Below, in pieces: positions 30,973 through 40,209 of a stretch of 64,000 bases of DNA. The DNA is taken from the NCBI RefSeq assembly GCF_030160075.1, contig NZ_BSNQ01000009.1:368295-432294 (forward strand). Reading direction: 5' to 3'. Under the pieces are notes generated by a model, which was given only the letters and a program-made list of their open reading frames with translations, was not told the DNA's origin and did not search any database. The position numbers and the translations under genes are program-made. Each line of letters starts with the position of its first letter. Within the stretch, counting starts at the first letter, position 1. Origin of the DNA: Dyella lipolytica. Its GTDB lineage: Bacteria > Pseudomonadota > Gammaproteobacteria > Xanthomonadales > Rhodanobacteraceae.

Positions 30973-33171
30973 ATGCGTCCGTATGTCCTGCTCCTGCTGT
31001 TTGCTGGCATCGGAGGGTTTCTGCCAGGTGGCGCGACGTTTGGCGCGACTTCGCCGCCCTTCGATGTCCGTCCCGAACGCGATGTCCTCCAACGGCTCAT
31101 GCCACGGCAGGCTTCACAGTTCGAACTTGCCGCCTTCGACAGCGCGGATGGTCATGAGCGCTTTCGCATTTCAAACGATAGTGGCCATATCAAGGTCGAG
31201 GGCAGTACACCCAGCGCCCTGCTCTTCGGGGTGAACTGGTATCTGAAGTACGTGGCACACGTGCAAATCTCGCCCAACGGCGACCGTCTGGGCACACGCA
31301 CTTTTCCTCTGCCCACCGCCGTTATCGAGAAGGAAACTCCGTACGCCTATCGCTATGCCTTGAACCAGAACGTCGACGGCTACACCGCGGCTTATTGGGA
31401 TTGGCCACGCTGGCAGCGAGAGATCGACGTACTGGCGCTGTCGGGCATCAACGCCATGATCGTCGAACGCGGCATGGATACCGTGCTGTACCGAACCTTC
31501 CGCGATGTCGGTTATTCGGATGGCGAGATTCGTCGCTGGATCACTCAGCCCGCGCACCAGAACTGGCAACTGATGGGCAATATGTGCTGCTTCAACGGAC
31601 CGATCAGCACCACGTTGATGCAAAAGCGTGTCGCCTCGGCGCAACAGATCGTTGCGCGCCTGCGCGAACTCGGCATCACGCCCGTGCTGCCCGGCTTCTA
31701 TGGCATCGTACCGGCCGATTTCCAGAACAAGTTCCCGCATGCCCATGTCGTGCCGCAGGGCGAATGGGCAGGCTTCACCCGCCCCGGCTGGCTCGATCCG
31801 CGCGACCCGATGTTCGCGAAGCTGGCGGCGGCCTTTTACAGGCATCAACACGAACTGTTCGGCGACAGCAGCATCTACGATATGGAAGTGTTTCAGGAAG
31901 GCGGCGATTCCGGCGACGTACCCGTTCCCGAAGCCGCTCGCGATGTGCAGAACGCATTGCTGACCGCGCATCACGACGCGCGTTGGATGATGCTCGCCTG
32001 GCAAGGCAATCCGCGGCAAGACCTGCTTAGCGGCGTCGATCGCCAGCATCTGTTGATCATCGATATCGACCACGATCGCGTGCCGCGCGACGATCGCCAG
32101 AAAGATTTCCAGCACGCACCTTTCTTGTTCGGCGGCATCTGGGAATTCGGTGGCCGCACGACACTGGGTGCCAATATCGGCAACGTCACGGAGCGGCTGC
32201 AGCGACTGGGACGCACCAACGACAATATGTCCGGCACCGCATTGTTTACCGAGGGGATGGATACCAATCCCTATGCCTTCGATCTGTTCACGGAAATGGC
32301 CTGGCGCCACGAGCCCGTCGATATCGCACAGTGGACCGCCGACTATGTGAAGCGCCGTTACGGCGCGGCCGACCCGCGCGCACTGGCAGCCTGGAACGTA
32401 TTGCTGAATACGGCATACGACATTCGTGTCGACAGTGTGGTTTTCAACAGCGAACGCGATGCGGCGCAGGAATCCCTGTTCGATGCGCAGCCCAGCCTCG
32501 CCGTAAACCGCGCATCGAACTGGTCGCCCGAGGCCATGCGCTACAGCGCCGAAGCTTTCAAGCAAGCCCTGCCAGACCTGCTGCAAGTAGCACCTGCACT
32601 ACGCAGCAGCGCGACCTATCAGTACGACCTGGCGGACATCGCGCGCCAGACGCTGGCCAACGAAAGCCGGCTGTTGCTGCCGCAAATCAAGACCGCCTAC
32701 GACAACAAGGATCGTCAACGCTTCGAAACGTTGACTCGGCGCTGGCTACAGCTGATGGACTTGCAAGACCAGTTGCTCAACAGCAACCGCGACTTCCTCC
32801 TTGGCGCATGGCTTGCGCAGGTCCAGCCCTGGGCGTCGATACCCGAGGAACGCGCACGACTCGACTATGACGCCCGCTCCATCCTCACCACCTGGGGCGA
32901 CCGCAAAGCCAGCGAAAGTGCCGACCTGCACGATTACGGCAACAAGGATTGGGCCGGCCTGACTCACGATTATTACCGCTTGCGATGGCAGACCTACTTC
33001 CGTGCGCTCGGCGATGAACTGCGTACGGGCCTCCCCGCCAAGCCCATCGATTGGTTCGCCCTCGGCGACGCGTGGAACCGTGGCACACAGCACTACTCCG
33101 ATCGTCCGGTTGGCGATACGTATGCGATAGCCACGCGCGTTGCCGAAGCGCTGCACCTCGGCAGGCATTAG
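30973..33171 (+). CDS. Secreted alpha-N-acetylglucosaminidase, GH89 family
   Basis: 732 residues with a signal peptide (YVLLLLFAGIGGFLPGGATFGA). The domains follow the human NAGLU order: an N-terminal alpha/beta domain (to about 115), a catalytic barrel (YRYALNQNVDGYTAAYWDWP, RWQREIDVLALSGINAMI, ITPVLPGFYGIVPADF) and a C-terminal helical domain. GH89 removes terminal alpha-N-acetylglucosamine from glycans such as mucin or heparan sulfate fragments. The candidate acidic catalytic residues are the glutamates in YDMEVFQEGG and LFTEGMDTNP, by position only. It stands alone, with no transporter or other glycosidase in the window. Confidence 0.9.
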   Translation: MRPYVLLLLFAGIGGFLPGGATFGATSPPFDVRPERDVLQRLMPRQASQFELAAFDSADGHERFRISNDSGHIKVEGSTPSALLFGVNWYLKYVAHVQISPNGDRLGTRTFPLPTAVIEKETPYAYRYALNQNVDGYTAAYWDWPRWQREIDVLALSGINAMIVERGMDTVLYRTFRDVGYSDGEIRRWITQPAHQNWQLMGNMCCFNGPISTTLMQKRVASAQQIVARLRELGITPVLPGFYGIVPADFQNKFPHAHVVPQGEWAGFTRPGWLDPRDPMFAKLAAAFYRHQHELFGDSSIYDMEVFQEGGDSGDVPVPEAARDVQNALLTAHHDARWMMLAWQGNPRQDLLSGVDRQHLLIIDIDHDRVPRDDRQKDFQHAPFLFGGIWEFGGRTTLGANIGNVTERLQRLGRTNDNMSGTALFTEGMDTNPYAFDLFTEMAWRHEPVDIAQWTADYVKRRYGAADPRALAAWNVLLNTAYDIRVDSVVFNSERDAAQESLFDAQPSLAVNRASNWSPEAMRYSAEAFKQALPDLLQVAPALRSSATYQYDLADIARQTLANESRLLLPQIKTAYDNKDRQRFETLTRRWLQLMDLQDQLLNSNRDFLLGAWLAQVQPWASIPEERARLDYDARSILTTWGDRKASESADLHDYGNKDWAGLTHDYYRLRWQTYFRALGDELRTGLPAKPIDWFALGDAWNRGTQHYSDRPVGDTYAIATRVAEALHLGRH

Positions 33172-33183
33172 CTCAACGTGTCG

Positions 33184-34407
33184 TTACACCGAGCGGGTCA
33201 CCTCCGCCGGCGACAAACGGGACGCACGCAGCGCCGGCACAAACACCGCTGATTGGCCAAGTAACAACAAAGCCACTGTACCCACCACCACGTACGCCAG
33301 CGACAATCTTTCCATTTCGAATCGATCGACCAGCAGCAGGTTCAGCCCCACTGCCAGCACGGCGCCAACCATAACGCCACCGAAACTGATCAGCAGATTC
33401 TCCGTACAAAAGTAGCCGAGAATATCGCCACGCGTCGCGCCCAATGCGCGGCGTACACCGATATGCTTTCTACGCTGGCTGACCCAGAAACTGGTCAATC
33501 CCACGATGCCGGCCGCCGTGGTCGCCAGCAGCACCAAGCAAATCACGCCCATGAGAATCGCCATGCCGCGGTCGCTACGGTAAGCGGCAGCGCGTATCTG
33601 GCTGAAGGTCTGCACATCCTTAGGTCCGATCACACGTAGCGGATTGGCGGCAAACAACGCTTTCGGTGCGGCTTGCGCCACCTCGGTCAGCTCGCCTGGC
33701 CGCGCACGCACCAGATAAGTCGTACCACTCATAAGTAATCGAAAAGGCACCAGGGTGGAACGTTCGACCCACGCATCGGAAAAACTACCGATCCATGTTT
33801 GCAGGCGGTCGACCACACCGATAATCGTGCTCGGCGGTGCGTTGCCGATGCATATCGTTTTTCCCACGGCCGAATCGCCAGGAAAAAGTTTGTCAGCCAA
33901 CGCCTTGGTGATGATGATCACCTTCGGCATCAAGCTGTCGCGTGCAGCCATCTGCCCGACTTCTTCGCTGCGAAAATTGCGCCCAGCGACAAGTGTGAGG
34001 CCGAGAGTAGATAGGGCGTGCTCATCGGCGAAATAAATCGCGGTCGGAGACGTCGCGCTTTTCTGATCCATCGTATAGCGCACACCCTTCGACCAACCGC
34101 CGCTGCCCAGCGGGTACGCATTGCTGGCAAATACGTCCGCCACACCTGGCGTACGCCGCAACGTTTCCAGATCGGAAGACATCAATGCCCGCGCCTGCTG
34201 CGGCGTCGGACTACCGATCCATTGATTCTGGATCATCAGTACATGGTCTTCATCTACGCCGCTCGGTCGCGACAACCGCACCACGCGCTGATGGATGATG
34301 AACAGTGAGTTGCATACGATCGCCAACGTCAGTGCGATCTGCAGCACGATCAACACCGTCCCGGCCTTGTGATGCCAGAGTGCGCGCAGGATAGGCTTTA
34401 TCTGCAT
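33184..34407 (-). CDS. FtsX/MacB-type ABC transporter permease (second of pair)
   Basis: 407 residues. An N-terminal helix (GTVLIVLQIALTLAIVCNSL), a large periplasmic MacB-like domain (about 45-280), then three C-terminal helices of the FtsX domain with SQRRKHIGVRRALGATRGDI and FVPALRASRLSPAEVTRSV. It is encoded 10 bases after its paralogue, which makes a probable heterodimer. Neither gene encodes an ATPase domain and no ATPase gene is in the window. Confidence 0.85.
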   Translation of the reverse strand: MQIKPILRALWHHKAGTVLIVLQIALTLAIVCNSLFIIHQRVVRLSRPSGVDEDHVLMIQNQWIGSPTPQQARALMSSDLETLRRTPGVADVFASNAYPLGSGGWSKGVRYTMDQKSATSPTAIYFADEHALSTLGLTLVAGRNFRSEEVGQMAARDSLMPKVIIITKALADKLFPGDSAVGKTICIGNAPPSTIIGVVDRLQTWIGSFSDAWVERSTLVPFRLLMSGTTYLVRARPGELTEVAQAAPKALFAANPLRVIGPKDVQTFSQIRAAAYRSDRGMAILMGVICLVLLATTAAGIVGLTSFWVSQRRKHIGVRRALGATRGDILGYFCTENLLISFGGVMVGAVLAVGLNLLLVDRFEMERLSLAYVVVGTVALLLLGQSAVFVPALRASRLSPAEVTRSV

Positions 34408-34417
34408 GAACTTCGCC

Positions 34418-35737
34418 TCACTGTGATTTCAGCTGCCACGAAGGCTGCACGCGCGCGGCGCGCCACGCTGGATAAATCGCGGCAACGACCGTCGCAAAAA
34501 TCGATACCAGCAATGTCAACCCGATCAGACTGACATTGGTATGGGCGAGCCTTGCTATCTCCGGCTCGAACAGGAGATCCGTGCTGAGCACGCCCGCCGC
34601 CGTGAGCGCCAAGCCGAGCACGCCGCCAGCCACACCCACCATCACCGCCTCGGCGATGAACTGCCGATAGATCGCGCCGCGCGATGCCCCCAGCGCACGA
34701 CGTACGCCAATCTCTCCCGCACGACGCATGATCTTGGCCAGCAACAAGCCGATCGTATTGACCAGACACACCAGCAAGAAGCCTGCCGCCACCAGTAAGG
34801 AGACTTTGGCTTCCGGGGGCACCACGCCTTCGTGATCCAGCCAATCCGTCAAATCGAACAACCCCACATGGCTAACCCAATGAAACCTGCCACTGCTCTG
34901 TTGTTGTGCCGCGTAACCACTGAGGAACTCGCTATAACGCTGCACCGCCGCCGCGTCCGGCAACTCGACCCATAGCGACACCCACACGCACTCCGATTGC
35001 AGCCACCCGTCCCAACCGGGCGCCATCGGTTTGGACGAACCGGAACAGCTGTTATTGCCATTGGTATCCATGTGCAGGTCCACCGCACGCGTAAAAGGCA
35101 AGTAGAAATCGGGCGTGTCGGCAAAACCAGAACCATTGTTGACGTCATAGAACCGCGGCTGTGGGTTCCAGTCATCGATGACACCGACGATGCGATAGTC
35201 ATGACCATTTAGATCGAGCATGCGACCGACACTGTTCGCACCGCTAAACAGTTTCTGATTGAGTTGGCTGCCGATGATGATCACATTGGCGCGTTGCTGA
35301 TCGTCGCTATCGTTCCAGCTACCGCCGTATGCAAAGCGCGCCTCGAACATCGGAAAGAAATCCGCGTAGGCGGCGTAACCATTCGCCGTGAAAGCCCGAT
35401 GCGCACCATCCTGCGGCACCACATTGTCGACCACCGGATAGATGGCTGTCTGGCGTTTCCCTACACGGGCGCGCATCAAGGCCATGGCATCCCTATAGGT
35501 CAGGGCGTCGGGCAGATGGTTGCGGGTCGAACCATTCTGCGGGCCCAGATTGTCGATTTGCGGAACGAACAGTTGCGCCGACTTATCCGGCAGCGGATCG
35601 CCCGATACGGCGCGGAACACCGCGTACGTCGTCATCGACGCAGCCACGCCCACCCCCATGATCAGCACCATCAGCGCAGTCAGTCCCGGACTTCGCCTGA
35701 AGCTGTGCAGAGCAAGCTGGAAGTAATAACCGAGCAT
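34418..35737 (-). CDS. FtsX/MacB-type ABC transporter permease (first of pair)
   Basis: 439 residues from ATG 35737 (AGGAG upstream); ATGs further upstream lack ribosome sites. An N-terminal helix (LTALMVLIMGVGVAASMTTY), a periplasmic domain with YPVVDNVVPQDGAHRAFTAN and VIIIGSQLNQKLFSGANSVG, and an FtsX domain with AKIMRRAGEIGVRRALGASR. It matches MacB-like permeases that span envelope processes rather than import. A LytTR-type direct repeat lies 117 bases upstream, oriented toward it. Confidence 0.85.
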   Translation of the reverse strand: MLGYYFQLALHSFRRSPGLTALMVLIMGVGVAASMTTYAVFRAVSGDPLPDKSAQLFVPQIDNLGPQNGSTRNHLPDALTYRDAMALMRARVGKRQTAIYPVVDNVVPQDGAHRAFTANGYAAYADFFPMFEARFAYGGSWNDSDDQQRANVIIIGSQLNQKLFSGANSVGRMLDLNGHDYRIVGVIDDWNPQPRFYDVNNGSGFADTPDFYLPFTRAVDLHMDTNGNNSCSGSSKPMAPGWDGWLQSECVWVSLWVELPDAAAVQRYSEFLSGYAAQQQSSGRFHWVSHVGLFDLTDWLDHEGVVPPEAKVSLLVAAGFLLVCLVNTIGLLLAKIMRRAGEIGVRRALGASRGAIYRQFIAEAVMVGVAGGVLGLALTAAGVLSTDLLFEPEIARLAHTNVSLIGLTLLVSIFATVVAAIYPAWRAARVQPSWQLKSQ

Positions 35738-35854
35738 GGGCTGGTCGCTCCTGGGTGACCCATCCGCCATCGGGAACGTGACGGCGCCACTCATACCCTG
35801 CCGTGGCGGCAGCAAAGCCGCATCGCTTTTGTGATGGCCGGCCGATGACGGGGG

Positions 35855-35883
35855 TTAGCGGTCTAGGGAGCGAGGCGAGCGGT
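35855..35883 (-). promoter_or_regulatory. LytTR (BtsR/YehT-like) direct-repeat operator ahead of the permease genes
   Basis: On the minus strand ACCGCTCG, 13 bases, ACCGCTAA. The half-site and 13-base spacer match the ACC(G/A)CT(C/T)A repeat known for BtsR/YehT. The first repeat begins on the last base of the regulator stop codon. The operator ends 117 bases before the permease ATG. Confidence 0.65.
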
Positions 35884-36638
35884 CAACGAAGCCCGAGGGC
35901 GACACGCGCAGCATTCCGGAATCGGCGACTCAGATCGAGGCGCGTACCGTCATGGAGAACGACCTCCGCGTGACCGTGGAACATCGTATGAACTTCGCGA
36001 ATACGATCCATGTTCACCACGATGCTTCGATGAATACGCAAAAAATGATTCGGATCCAGCGACTCGTACAGATGCCGCAGGGTCTCGCGATGCAGATACG
36101 TGTTGCTGCCGACATGGATGCGCACATAGTTGTCATCGGCGCGAATCCAATCGATATCCGCCACGGGTATCACCATGCTCCGTTCGGCCGCCTGTACGCT
36201 GATACGCTTCGCGTAGCTTCCATGACCATCGGCCGACGCATGCCGGCGATCGATCTGCAGCCCATACCAATGCTTCCGGACCCGGTCCATAGCCTGATCG
36301 AAACGCACCTGGTCGATCGGTTTCAGCACGTAGTCGATGGCGTTGGCGTCGAAAGCCTCCAGGGCGTGCTCCGCGAATGCGGTGGTGAACACCACCATCG
36401 GCAAAGGTTCGGGCGCGTGGCCATCGCGTAGCAAAGTGAAACCGTCGCCTCCTGGCATCTGGATATCGAGAAACAACAAATCGGGCGCCAACGCGGCCAT
36501 CGCCTGCATCACTTCCTGGACGTTTCCGCACTCGCCGACCACATCGATATCCGTGTGCGACGCCAGCGCCTGCCGCACCGCTACACGCGCCAGAATCTCG
36601 TCGTCGACCAGCAACGCGCGGATCTTTGGCGTCGTCAT
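35883..36638 (-). CDS. LytTR-family response regulator
   Basis: 251 residues from ATG 36638, whose ATGA overlaps the kinase stop. The receiver has LLVDDEILARVAV, the phospho-acceptor in DLLFLDIQMPGGDGF, FTTAFAEHAL and DYVLKPID. The C-terminal LytTR domain (about 150-250) has RSMVIPVADIDWIRADDNYV, HLYESLDPNHFLRIHRSIVV and LDLSRRFRN. LytTR domains bind direct repeats. Two such repeats flank this gene pair, so the permease genes and the NTF2-like gene are likely targets. Confidence 0.9.
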   Translation of the reverse strand: MTTPKIRALLVDDEILARVAVRQALASHTDIDVVGECGNVQEVMQAMAALAPDLLFLDIQMPGGDGFTLLRDGHAPEPLPMVVFTTAFAEHALEAFDANAIDYVLKPIDQVRFDQAMDRVRKHWYGLQIDRRHASADGHGSYAKRISVQAAERSMVIPVADIDWIRADDNYVRIHVGSNTYLHRETLRHLYESLDPNHFLRIHRSIVVNMDRIREVHTMFHGHAEVVLHDGTRLDLSRRFRNAARVALGLR

Positions 36639-37720
36639 GGGCTGCACTCGACATATGGAAAGCGCAACTCCACGCGCGTGCCACCATTGGATCTGCGCGA
36701 AAGATCCATCGTTGCGGCATCGCCGAACATAGCCCGCAACCGGGCTCGGGTATTGCTCAGGCCGACACCCTCGATAGGCCCGTTTTCCGGCAAGCCGAGT
36801 CCGTCGTCCTCCACGCTCAGATGCAGATCCCCGTCGATATGTCGCGCAAAAATATGCAACTCACCGCCATCGGTCTTGGTCAGCAAGCCGTGGCGCAATG
36901 CGTTTTCCACCAGCGGCTGCAAAATTAGACTGGGCACCATGGCGTTGCCAGTGTTACCCATATCCACATGGGTCACGAGGCGATCCTGAAACCGCACCTT
37001 CTGGATACCCAGATAGGATTCGAGGAATTGCATCTCTCGCGACAAAGGCACTTGCTGAGCATGGCGTTCTTCGAGGGTCAGCCGGAGAAAGTCGCTCAGC
37101 CGCGCAATCATCAGCTTCGCCTGCGGCGGATCGGCCAGCACCAGCGCCGAAATGGCATTGAGCGTATTGAATAGAAAATGGGGCTGCAATTGCATGCGCA
37201 GCACCTGCAGTTGCGACAGCGCGAGCTTGGTCTCGAGCTGAGAATTGCGGAGGCGTTCGTCCTTCAGCGAGTTGCGCGAGGCCATACCGCGCAACACCAC
37301 TAGCATGAGCCAGTAGGTAAGTAACGCCAAATGAAATTTGTAGATCGCTTCTGTGTGAAGCAGATCGGTGAAAGAGTAGACATGACCTTTCGGATTAGGG
37401 CCGCACCACCAGAAAAAAAACTGCAGCATGACCAGGCTCTGCAGAGTAGCGACCCCGATGCTGCACGGAACATGCAGCATCCAGAACCGCCGCCAATCCT
37501 GCGAACCCATGCGCCCCAGCCAAGCGACCAGCGGCGTCAAGAGCATCCAGAGATAGAAATCGATCAGGTTCCAAGACAGCGCGCGGTACCACGAAACCGG
37601 ATGCCCTTCGCTGATCGACCCCAGTACCGTACTTGCCGCGTACGAGAACGCGAGCATCGTCCAGAAGCCAAACGCAAGACTGACTACTTTCAGGTTGTGT
37701 GTGCGAGCAAGTTCGGTCAT
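36635..37720 (-). CDS. LytS/BtsS-like sensor histidine kinase (His_kinase family)
   Basis: 361 residues from ATG 37720. About four membrane helices occupy the first 150 residues, with no sizeable extracytoplasmic domain. The phospho-acceptor motif RMQLQPHFLFNTLNAISAL is that of the LytS class. The ATPase domain contains PSLILQPLVENALRHG and SVEDDGLGLPENGPIEGVGL. It is coupled to the LytTR regulator. The membrane-embedded sensor suggests detection of a change in the membrane or of a small hydrophobic ligand. Confidence 0.88.
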   Translation of the reverse strand: MTELARTHNLKVVSLAFGFWTMLAFSYAASTVLGSISEGHPVSWYRALSWNLIDFYLWMLLTPLVAWLGRMGSQDWRRFWMLHVPCSIGVATLQSLVMLQFFFWWCGPNPKGHVYSFTDLLHTEAIYKFHLALLTYWLMLVVLRGMASRNSLKDERLRNSQLETKLALSQLQVLRMQLQPHFLFNTLNAISALVLADPPQAKLMIARLSDFLRLTLEERHAQQVPLSREMQFLESYLGIQKVRFQDRLVTHVDMGNTGNAMVPSLILQPLVENALRHGLLTKTDGGELHIFARHIDGDLHLSVEDDGLGLPENGPIEGVGLSNTRARLRAMFGDAATMDLSRRSNGGTRVELRFPYVECSP

Positions 37721-37742
37721 TCCTCTCTCGCCTCGTCGTTGT

Positions 37743-37772
37743 CCGTCATGCTGGCGAAAGCTGGCATGACGG
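37743..37772. repeat. Small palindromic repeat in the kinase leader
   Basis: CCGTCATGC, 12 bases, GCATGACGG. The pattern with CGAAAG in the loop resembles common dispersed intergenic palindromes. It lies 22 bases upstream of the kinase ATG. Confidence 0.5.
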
Positions 37773-37883
37773 CATGTGCGTAGTGGCCGTAGTGTGCGGA
37801 CTCTACCTCCCATTGGGAAGTGTCAATTCCCACCACTACGTCTTGTCGAAACTCGCGATCGTTTCGCGGCTCTAGATGGGGTT

Positions 37884-37912
37884 ACCGCTAACCCTCCCGA
37901 TCCTACCGCTTA
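37884..37912 (+). promoter_or_regulatory. LytTR (BtsR/YehT-like) direct-repeat operator ahead of the NTF2-like gene
   Basis: ACCGCTAA, 13 bases, ACCGCTTA on the plus strand. The second copy matches ACC(G/A)CT(C/T)A exactly and the first differs at one base. It ends 94 bases before the NTF2-like ATG and is oriented toward it. GGGTTA/TAACCC flank the first copy. Confidence 0.65.
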
Positions 37913-38006
37913 CCCCAGGCCGCAGACGTTCATCACAAAGTACATGTCTCCTCCGTGTGTGTAGCCCACCATGGGCATACATCATCTTTTCCAACAGGAA
38001 TGCGCC

Positions 38007-38528
38007 ATGGCCGCTCTCGATTATCGCCGTTCGTTGTTCGGTGCCACCGTAGCCGCTGCGCTACTGGCTTATGCTGTTTTCCTTCCGCAATCCATTGACC
38101 TGCATGCGCAAGAATCGATGTCCGCATCGGCCGACGAAACTCAATTGTCCGAAGCGGGTGTGATGGCCGTCGACAATCACTGGAGCATCGCCGAATTGAC
38201 CGGCGACATGGACTATCTGAACAAGATGCTGCTTCCCGAATACCGCTCAGTGAACACTGACGGCACGGCGCACTCGAAGGCGGCCATCGTCGCGGGCGCG
38301 GCAAAGCGCAAGGGCACCGATATCGCCAAAGCGAAGCTCGAGTTTGCCACCTACCAAAAAGAACACCCGTTTGGCAGCGCCGTGGTCATTCATGGCAACA
38401 CGGCGATTGTGTCTTTCTACGATCCGGCACTTGGTCCGCAAAACGGCGTCAAGTCATCGGATGTCTTCGTCTACATTGATGGTCAGTGGCATGCGATATA
38501 CTCGCAGCACACCGGCGTTCATGGTTGA
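38007..38528 (+). CDS. Exported NTF2/SnoaL-like protein
   Basis: 173 residues from ATG 38007 (AGGA 8 bases upstream). A signal or anchor helix (SLFGATVAAALLAYAVFLPQ) is followed by an NTF2-like (DUF4440/SnoaL) domain: VMAVDNHWSIAELTGDMDYL, LPEYRSVNTDGTAHSKAAIV, FYDPALGPQNG, VFVYIDGQWHAIYSQHT. Such cone-shaped domains bind small ligands or catalyse simple reactions. It is divergent from the LytS/LytTR pair and has a LytTR operator in its promoter, so it is probably part of that regulon. Confidence 0.75.
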   Translation: MAALDYRRSLFGATVAAALLAYAVFLPQSIDLHAQESMSASADETQLSEAGVMAVDNHWSIAELTGDMDYLNKMLLPEYRSVNTDGTAHSKAAIVAGAAKRKGTDIAKAKLEFATYQKEHPFGSAVVIHGNTAIVSFYDPALGPQNGVKSSDVFVYIDGQWHAIYSQHTGVHG

Positions 38529-38604: not shown

Positions 38605-40209
38605 TTAGCGGGCCTGCAACGCCTCCACCACACCGAGACGCTGCATGTCCTGCAGCAACAACTGCACATCGCCCATCTGTTTCGGCGTCAGCTGCCGCGA
38701 AACCTGGGCGATCAATTTGTTCCGGTTAGCGACAGTCGCGTCGCTTAGCGCAGACGAGAGGCTCACGACGTTCGTCGAATGCACGCATAACGCGTAGGTA
38801 ACGACGAGGTCTTTAGTCACACCCAGCCCGTTTGCATACATCAGGCCGAGATTGAATTGCGCCGTTGGATTTTCCTGCTCGGCACCTAAGCGAAACAACG
38901 CGATGGCGCGCGCGTAATCCCGCGGCACGCTCAGGCCTTTGACATACATCATCCCAAGATTGGTCTGCGCGGTGGCGTTACCTTGATCGGCGCTTTTTTG
39001 GAACCACTCGATGGCTTGGGCATAGTCTTTGGATCTGCCTTCGCCATTGAGGTACATGGTGCCAAGATTGGCCTGCGCCTGAGCATTCCCCTGCGCCGCG
39101 GATTTGTTGTACCACGCAAAGGCATCGGCATAGCTCTGCGGCACACCGCGGCCCTTGCTATACATCGTGCCCAAGTTGACCTGAGCGCCGGAGTCATTCT
39201 GGTCCGCGGCCTTTTGGAACCACGAGAGAGCTTGAGCGTAGTCTTGTGGTACGCCGTAGCCCATGTCGTACATCTCGCCCAGATTAGATTCTGCGCTGGC
39301 ATTACCCTGGTCGGCGGCCTTGCGATACCACTGCACTGACTCGCCGAAGTCCTGTGCCACACCATGGCCATGGTTGTACATGGCACCTAAGTTGTTTTGC
39401 GCGTTGGCGTTCCCTTGATTGGCGGATTCGCGATACAAGGTCACCGCTTCCGCGTAATTCTGCTGTACTCCGATGCCTTGGTCGTAGGCCCTCCCAAGGT
39501 TGTACTGCGCCCATGCGTCGCCTTGCGCGGCCGCTTCGCGATACAAGTCGGCCGCTTTCACCGGATCCTTTGGCACGCCATTGCCGTTGGCATACATCAC
39601 GCCAAGATTGGTTTGTGCTTTAGTGCTGCCCTTCGCCACCGCCTGGTTGTACCAGCGCAGGGCCTGGCCATAATCCTGCGGCACGCCCAAACCGTTTTGA
39701 TACATCTGCCCGAGGTTGGCTTGCGCCGTCGAGTCGCCCTTCTCCGCTGCGTTGCCAAACAGGCTGAGAGCCTGGTTATAGTCCTTCGGCACGCCCTGGC
39801 CGGTTTCATACATCAAGCCCAGGTTGTTCTGCGCAACGGTATTGCCCTGCGCAGCAGCCTTGCCGTACCAAAGGGCGGCCTGAGCAAAGTCGCGGGGCAC
39901 GCCTTCACCATGCGCGTAGATAAAGCCGAGTCGGGTCTGCGCGTTGGCATCCCCTTGCGCTGCCGCAAGACCGAACCAATGCGCAGCCTGTGCTGCGTCC
40001 TGTGGCACGCCGTGACCTTGGGCGTACATCAAACCGAGGTCATATTGCGCAACTTTGTTTCCGCGCTCGGCCAGCGGCGTGAATTCCGCCACGGCAACGG
40101 CGTAATTACCCTCTTTGGCCGCAAGAACACCTTTTTGAACATCCGCAGCAATGACGACGTTGCACGCCAACAGCAACACGCCGCCAAGGCATGTACTCCA
40201 TCCTTTCAT
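38605..40209 (-). CDS. Exported Sel1-like repeat protein
   Basis: 534 residues with a signal peptide (CLGGVLLLACNVVIAA); LLAC could also be a lipobox. The body is about twelve consecutive 36-residue Sel1 repeats, each with the pattern AQxNLGxMYxxGxGVPxDYxxA. A short helical tail follows (SDATVANRNKLIAQVSRQLT). Sel1 repeats form a solenoid for protein contacts and in bacteria often assist envelope or signalling complexes. It stands alone, so no partner can be inferred. Confidence 0.9.
   Translation of the reverse strand: MKGWSTCLGGVLLLACNVVIAADVQKGVLAAKEGNYAVAVAEFTPLAERGNKVAQYDLGLMYAQGHGVPQDAAQAAHWFGLAAAQGDANAQTRLGFIYAHGEGVPRDFAQAALWYGKAAAQGNTVAQNNLGLMYETGQGVPKDYNQALSLFGNAAEKGDSTAQANLGQMYQNGLGVPQDYGQALRWYNQAVAKGSTKAQTNLGVMYANGNGVPKDPVKAADLYREAAAQGDAWAQYNLGRAYDQGIGVQQNYAEAVTLYRESANQGNANAQNNLGAMYNHGHGVAQDFGESVQWYRKAADQGNASAESNLGEMYDMGYGVPQDYAQALSWFQKAADQNDSGAQVNLGTMYSKGRGVPQSYADAFAWYNKSAAQGNAQAQANLGTMYLNGEGRSKDYAQAIEWFQKSADQGNATAQTNLGMMYVKGLSVPRDYARAIALFRLGAEQENPTAQFNLGLMYANGLGVTKDLVVTYALCVHSTNVVSLSSALSDATVANRNKLIAQVSRQLTPKQMGDVQLLLQDMQRLGVVEALQAR

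Follow-up and report, generated by a model that had tools for sequence, protein, structure and literature searches.

The locus and its operators

The 64,000-nucleotide stretch analysed here (the window) corresponds to C9:368295-432294 of a 4.05 Mb genome from a soil bacterium of the Dyella group of the Rhodanobacteraceae. It contains the genes of a histidine kinase and a LytTR response regulator, with two permease genes, permA and permB, 3' of the regulator and a divergent gene for an NTF2-like (DUF4440) protein on the other side. Two direct-repeat operators bracket the kinase and regulator genes, and the whole very probably constitutes a LytTR regulon of the two-component kind that has two promoters in this genome and directly activates the permease pair and the NTF2-like gene. 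The genes are the following.

33184..34407, minus strand: permB, a permease of 407 amino acids (aa) with MacB_PCD and FtsX domains (Pfam PF12704, PF02687)
34418..35737, minus strand: permA, a permease of 439 aa with MacB_PCD and FtsX domains (Pfam)
35883..36638, minus strand: LytTR response regulator of 251 aa with receiver and LytTR domains (Pfam PF00072, PF04397)
36635..37720, minus strand: histidine kinase with His_kinase and HATPase_c domains (Pfam PF06580, PF02518) and N-terminal hydrophobic segments (hydropathy windows)
38007..38528, plus strand: NTF2-like (DUF4440) protein of 173 aa from its corrected start (Pfam PF14534)

The sequence-only reading of this DNA had reported two ACCGCT direct repeats on either side of the LytTR and kinase genes, one directed at the permease pair and the other at the NTF2-like gene. 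Both the repeats and their layout on the gene map are confirmed. The pattern ACCGCT-N15-ACCGCT has exactly two matches in the window, one at 35857-35883 on the minus strand, directed at permA, and one at 37884-37910 on the plus strand, directed at the NTF2-like gene; the 8-mers of the repeats extend to 35855 and 37912, respectively. Dinucleotide shuffles of the window gave a mean of 0.02 matches, and two matches were reached in 0 of 100. Three things had escaped that reading: a third half-site, a core promoter, and the fact that relatives have different targets in exchange. The two promoters, of which the -35 and -10 elements are putative, are made up as follows.

35876..35883, minus strand: distal (first) half-site of the permA promoter, ACCGCTCG
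35855..35862, minus strand: second half-site of the permA promoter, ACCGCTAA
35828..35842, minus strand: third, degenerate, promoter-proximal half-site of the permA promoter, GCCGGCCATCACAAA, with TCACAAA at a fixed register
35818..35823, minus strand: putative -35 element ATGCGG, permA promoter
35795..35800, minus strand: putative -10 element CAGGGT, permA promoter, separated from the -35 by 17 bp and at a fixed register after TCACAAA
37884..37891, plus strand: distal (first) half-site of the NTF2 promoter, ACCGCTAA
37905..37912, plus strand: second half-site of the NTF2 promoter, ACCGCTTA
37925..37939, plus strand: third, degenerate, promoter-proximal half-site of the NTF2 promoter, GACGTTCATCACAAA
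37944..37949, plus strand: putative -35 element ATGTCT, NTF2 promoter
37967..37972, plus strand: putative -10 element CACCAT, NTF2 promoter, separated from the -35 by 17 bp

The first base of the distal half-site of the permA promoter is also the final base of the LytTR stop codon. The period from the first to the second half-site is 21 bp and that from the second to the third is 20 or 21 bp, and the half-sites therefore lie on one face of the DNA. Within the focal genus only the 3' part of the third half-site is well kept. All half-sites stop short of the putative -10 and of the start. The start of the NTF2-like gene listed earlier, 37971, falls within the inferred -10 and should for this reason be moved to 38007, which is preceded by the ribosome-site-like sequence AGGA.

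Conservation and co-occurrence with the regulator

Orthologs of the regulator, taken at E <= 1e-75, are present in 71 of 233 genomes of the family, and all 71 loci, that of the window included, were used. Conservation of the repeats and of their spacing ahead of orthologous genes was the check proposed by the sequence-only reading; the operators pass it, and the spacing of 15 alone stands out. In a first promoter test on 32 upstream regions (19 of NTF2 genes, seven of permA and six of PD40a, one of two families of PD40 propeller genes denoted PD40a and PD40b), this spacing is found in 21 regions at up to one mismatch and in 29 at up to two, while the other spacings from 4 to 33 reach at most 3/32 and 14/32. 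Six control promoters of NAGLU-family genes contain no same-strand site at up to two mismatches and one perfect match on the opposite strand.

The 200 bp 3' of the LytTR stop codon give a similar picture across the 71 loci. Sites with spacing 15 occur in 31 loci at up to one mismatch and in 47 at up to two, the next best spacing between 4 and 40 gives 5/71 and 16/71, and none of the 71 loci has a spacing-15 site on the opposite strand. In 100 shuffles the mean counts are 0.08 and 1.21, with maxima of 1 and 8, for the two thresholds.

A recognised target gene lies within 500 bp after the LytTR gene in 52 of these loci (39 PD40a, 3 PD40b, 7 permA, 2 NTF2 and one of a family denoted C31). The operator accompanies the target: it is found in 31/52 loci with a recognised target at up to one mismatch and in 43/52 at up to two, as against 0/19 and 4/19 where no target is recognised. 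Sorted by target, sites at up to two mismatches precede 32/39 PD40a, 3/3 PD40b, 7/7 permA and 1/1 C31 genes and 0/2 NTF2 genes.

Within the focal genus, an extended half-site pattern gives 20 matches at up to one mismatch, distributed over 13 of 16 genomes. All 12 genomes with an orthologous regulator contain such an operator, compared with one of the four without it (G002, G006, G008 and G009). Nineteen of the 20 sites are located at NTF2, permA, PD40a or a PD40b-kinase-regulator operon; the exception is in the regulator-free genome G008, beside a permease-like open reading frame (ORF) of a different kind. In two genomes the operator and the regulator lie on different contigs. In G003 the kinase-regulator pair is on C8, whereas C46 carries the NTF2 gene and its operator; in G001 the pair is on C68, whereas C11 carries PD40a and its operator. 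The NTF2 gene of G003 and the PD40a gene of G001 are predicted targets in trans. Spacing, conservation and co-occurrence thus support the small LytTR regulon that had been proposed for the window, with two promoters; the operator, its spacing, its company with the regulator and the register of the core promoter are established from sequence.

A putative core promoter

Nineteen promoters of the focal genus, chosen by their two upstream half-sites, share the heptamer TCACAAA: a search over 48 positions finds its best match exact in 16 and with one mismatch in three. It begins 28 (16 cases) or 29 (three cases) positions after the start of the second half-site. Further downstream, the G of the -35 is present in 19/19 promoters, and the A and the T of the -10 in 18/19 each.

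The combination of a half-site and TCACAAA was then scanned in 74 loci, comprising the 71 ortholog loci and three further stretches. Offsets 28 and 29 give 62 sites in 46 loci; the remaining offsets in the range 18-44 add up to seven sites. At positions outside the selection, G is found at +13 (position 3 of the -35) in 62/62 sites and C at +14 in 49/62, and in the -10 A at +35 and T at +39 are each found in 54/62, against background frequencies of 0.15 for A and 0.18 for T. The 17 positions between the two elements carry little information in these sites. The conserved block is accordingly best read as a putative -35 (nTGCnn), a 17-bp spacer and a putative -10 (nAnnnT). A sigma-54 reading of the TCACAAA...TGC block was also considered and was dropped, as its spacing misfits the -24/-12 consensus.

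With the end of the proximal 9-bp repeat set at position 0, the inferred -35 starts at position 11, which leaves a gap of 10 bp. Relatives often have a complete half-site (ACCGCTCRTCACAAA) as the proximal unit; this unit is degenerate in its 5' part in the focal genus, where two strong half-sites are found further upstream.

Genome-wide counts

In the genome of the window, the bare motif is without enrichment, with four matches compared with 13 for the reversed pattern; the significance of the operators therefore depends on position and conservation. The extended half-site pattern has exactly two perfect matches in this genome, both in the window, and four matches at up to two mismatches compared with eight for the reversed pattern. 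The half-site and TCACAAA pattern also has two perfect matches, which are the two promoters of the window, followed by one match at two mismatches and 30 at three. No regulon-family gene was seen among the ORFs read at the other matches of this genome, namely those to the bare motif (L001 and L002) and those with two mismatches (L127 and L128).

One composite pattern was built with register 29, the form found in relatives, and misses most promoters of the focal genus; register 28 was used for the genome of the window. The two-mismatch matches of the register-29 pattern, viewed as a set, mostly resemble coding noise. Raw counts of this kind are without evidential value, and it is location and perfect matches that carry the case.

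Predicted targets among relatives

The slot after the regulator gene is occupied by a PD40 propeller gene in 42 of the 71 loci and by a permease in seven. Further PD40, NTF2-like or DUF1579-looking genes are often nearby in relatives; the C31 family, which obtained no match from Pfam, may resemble DUF1579. Since the slot in relatives mostly holds PD40 under the same form of promoter, the regulator-operator pair looks older than the permease target.

A tree of 21 regulators contains an 11-member clade that includes the window, with support of 100/100. The permease pair follows the regulator in seven members of this clade and is missing from four. All seven members with permeases have the operator at up to two mismatches. 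Of those without, G007 has a single half-site, G013 has an operator that is in place and decayed, and G012 and G001 have nothing recognisable of the operator there. Such decay where the permeases are missing fits relaxed constraint after gene loss. Gain and loss of the permeases on the tree takes three changes, and shuffled labels gave values as low in 222 of 500 cases; a tree of 21 regulators is too small to settle the number of gains and losses.

At L305 and L307 (G001:C12 and G012:C28), several half-sites and a CCACAAA sequence precede, by eye, the 3' end of a PD40 gene. These arrays are perhaps operator remnants after gene loss.

Taken jointly, these observations allow a broader reading, for and against which the chances appear evenly balanced. 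An undescribed Rhodanobacteraceae LytTR regulon would have kept its kinase, regulator and promoter code fixed while its targets were exchanged. An ATPase-less permease pair of the MacB type would have replaced PD40 at the base of the Dyella clade, the operator would have been kept against the stop codon and would have decayed wherever the permeases were later lost, and sensor and targets would make one envelope-sensing module.

The encoded proteins and their neighbours

The regulator clears the curated cut-offs of both its domains (70.9 bits for PF00072 and 83.9 bits for PF04397), and its Asp58 (D58), at the phospho-acceptor position, is invariant across 21 aligned orthologs. The stop codon of the kinase gene and the start codon of the LytTR gene overlap in a shared ATGA. 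Judged from its hydropathy, the kinase is probably a membrane protein.

The NTF2-like protein matches PF14534 with 31.6 bits against a cut-off of 25.2. Its predicted structure has a pLDDT (predicted local distance difference test) score of 83.8, and Foldseek matches it to the NTF2-like structures 3fka (E 3e-6) and 2r4i; the prediction and the Foldseek search yielded a fold and no indication of function. The N-terminus is hydrophobic and, by eye, signal-like, and the protein is a candidate for export. Its gene adjoins one at window 38605-40209 for a protein with 11 Sel1 repeats (PF08238), near which there is no perfect regulon operator.

The ATG of permA is at 35737-35735, and the permA searches were run with 34418-35740, that is, with one extra codon. 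The sequence-only reading had called the two permeases a MacB-type pair, which is borne out by their MacB_PCD and FtsX domains and falls short as to the remainder of such an exporter: the neighbouring genes scanned around permA and permB include neither an ABC ATPase nor a MacA-like adaptor. A separate cluster of this genome (L049, G000:C9:152000-170000), at a distance of about 240 kb, encodes an HlyD-type protein, an ABC ATPase (ABC_tran) and several MacB/FtsX permeases in tandem. These permeases are related to those of the window, the best of them being 58% identical to permA. Given this cluster with its ATPase and HlyD-type protein, the permease pair may borrow an ATPase, for instance that one, or may work as an orphan.

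The gene 3' of the permease pair is convergent with it and belongs to the NAGLU family. It encodes an alpha-N-acetylglucosaminidase (window 30973-33171) and adjoins the locus also in L035, L037, L039, L105 and L106.

A model of the regulon and alternative explanations

In the proposed mechanism, the membrane histidine kinase would sense a signal and phosphorylate the LytTR regulator at D58. The regulator would bind the array of three half-sites cooperatively, on one face of the DNA. The proximal repeat ends 10 bp short of the putative -35, in a poor promoter of the sigma-70 type, and the bound regulator would there recruit RNA polymerase. The genes activated would be the MacB/FtsX-type permease pair 3' of the regulator gene and the divergent NTF2-like gene. 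Binding by the neighbouring regulator, activation instead of repression, and phosphorylation are the presumed parts of this scheme; an array upstream of a weak promoter, from which RNA polymerase could be contacted, argues for activation.

Several observations weigh against this model. No pair at up to two mismatches follows the LytTR gene in 24 of the 71 loci, nine of which have a recognised target gene. Outside the genus, some NTF2 promoters are without a good site, namely those of L120 and L113 (4 mismatches) and of L117 (3). The related genomes are not independent of each other. In the genome of the window the reversed control is nearly equal at up to three mismatches (25 vs 33), and in the genus the raw count of the reversed pattern is 22 vs 20 for the forward one. 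Finally, the genome of the window encodes four other proteins with matches to the regulator at E <= 1e-20, and any of these could recognise the operators as well.

It is on these four proteins that another explanation draws, in which the operators are real LytTR sites bound mainly by a different LytTR protein, with the neighbouring pair as a bystander or a sharer; a paralog at G000:C3:912 kb indeed has ACCGCT-type direct repeats nearby (L123). This is unlikely, since the site at up to one mismatch tracks the ortholog across the genus genomes with and without it, the operator abuts the stop codon of the neighbouring regulator, and the repeats of the paralog differ in their 3' extension, which is CTGC and not CCCC. 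That the regulator represses both promoters instead of activating them is suggested by the annotation of E. coli BtsR as a dual regulator, and is quite improbable: a weak -35 follows the repeats after a gap of 10 bp, the position of LytTR activation in PMC6193735, and the putative -10 and the start are free of half-sites.

A true BtsSR ortholog with swapped targets would account for half-sites that resemble the btsT promoter and for BtsR being the best NCBIfam model of the window regulator, yet it has very little probability. BtsS carries 5TM-5TMR_LYT and GAF domains, as does PyrS, and the window kinase carries neither; PF07694 has no match in the 16 genus genomes. The NCBIfam BtsR model scores 172.7 bits on the window regulator, under its cut-off of 246. 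In the genome of the window E. coli BtsR has its best match in another LytTR protein (G000:C3:912336, 144.7 bits), the window regulator, 37% identical to BtsR, scoring 129.4. Kinase architecture, model cut-off and best-match test together led to the rejection of BtsSR membership. Chance repeats in GC-rich DNA would be compatible with a bare motif that is not enriched across the genome and with reversed counts in the genus that equal the forward ones; the specific spacing, strand, register and gene context and the co-occurrence with the regulator already contradict this explanation, the probability of which is negligible.

A conserved direct repeat of the ACCGCTTGCTGCA type accompanies a second, paralogous kinase/LytTR pair at L122:8049-8075, L123:7567-7593 (genome of the window, G000:C3) and L124:8413-8439. 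The repeat is near the start of a gene of about 660 aa on the opposite strand, the beta-barrel match of which is weak and below cut-off. The CTGC extension of this repeat may mark a separate specificity.

Comparison with known systems

No description of this regulon, and no characterised LytTR system for Rhodanobacteraceae, was found in the literature searched, which covered titles and abstract openings of an open-access subset. The regulon preferred here, with activation by the neighbouring regulator, can be set beside several described systems.

The permeases permA and permB share the MacB_PCD and FtsX domains with the MacAB exporters and with the duplicated permeases of the ADOP type. The N-terminal half of the ADOP model is matched by permA and its C-terminal half by permB; neither the ADOP nor the MacB model reaches its cut-off. 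The window pair differs from the tripartite MacAB exporter in that no ATPase or adaptor gene adjoins it.

Pseudomonas AlgZ/AlgR also has a LytTR regulator, and the AlgR core CCGTTCGTC resembles the half-site CCGCTCGTC of the relatives (PMC4064291). AlgR sites, according to the same source, are not necessarily direct repeats, and AlgZ/AlgR is set beside the window by description alone.

BtsS/BtsR (YehU/YehT) resembles the window system in its LytTR response regulator and in half-sites of the ACC[G/A]CT type about 21 bp apart. The btsT promoter of MG1655, read directly, contains GCCGCTCA, then ACCGCTTA 20 bp on and ACCACTCA 21 bp on, so that it too has three half-sites, at intervals of 20 and 21 bp; a surface plasmon resonance oligonucleotide in PMC4847170 has this very stretch. 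The likeness of half-site and spacing to those of BtsR, which the sequence-only reading had noted, is thus borne out. Its description of a BtsSR-like system holds for the operator grammar and fails for family membership. The target of BtsR is a pyruvate symporter, whereas here a permease pair and an NTF2-like protein would be controlled. LytTR operators are defined in PMC4847170 as direct repeats with units of 9-11 nt and spacers of 11-13 bp, a definition that the window operators satisfy with their 21-bp period, and the period is treated there as general LytTR grammar, not specific to BtsR.

The LytTR regulatory systems (LRS) HdrRM and BrsRM, as described in PMC6193735, have 9-bp repeats with 12-bp spacers placed 10 bp upstream of the -35. 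Their regulators are without the phospho-acceptor aspartate and are paired with a membrane inhibitor that is not a kinase, whereas the window encodes a histidine kinase and a regulator whose receiver contains D58. In the same paper, a strong bias towards repeats 10 bp upstream of the -35 is given as the commonest geometry of these systems. The promoter geometry derived here from conservation alone agrees with this published geometry of LytTR activation, which supports a general rule for the family. Two anonymous repeats have in this way led to a regulon that can be tested and whose half-sites and putative -35 and -10 are assigned exact positions, and its predicted targets, an NTF2-like protein, a PD40 propeller and a permease pair, are tied together by a shared promoter code that offers a route to the signal.

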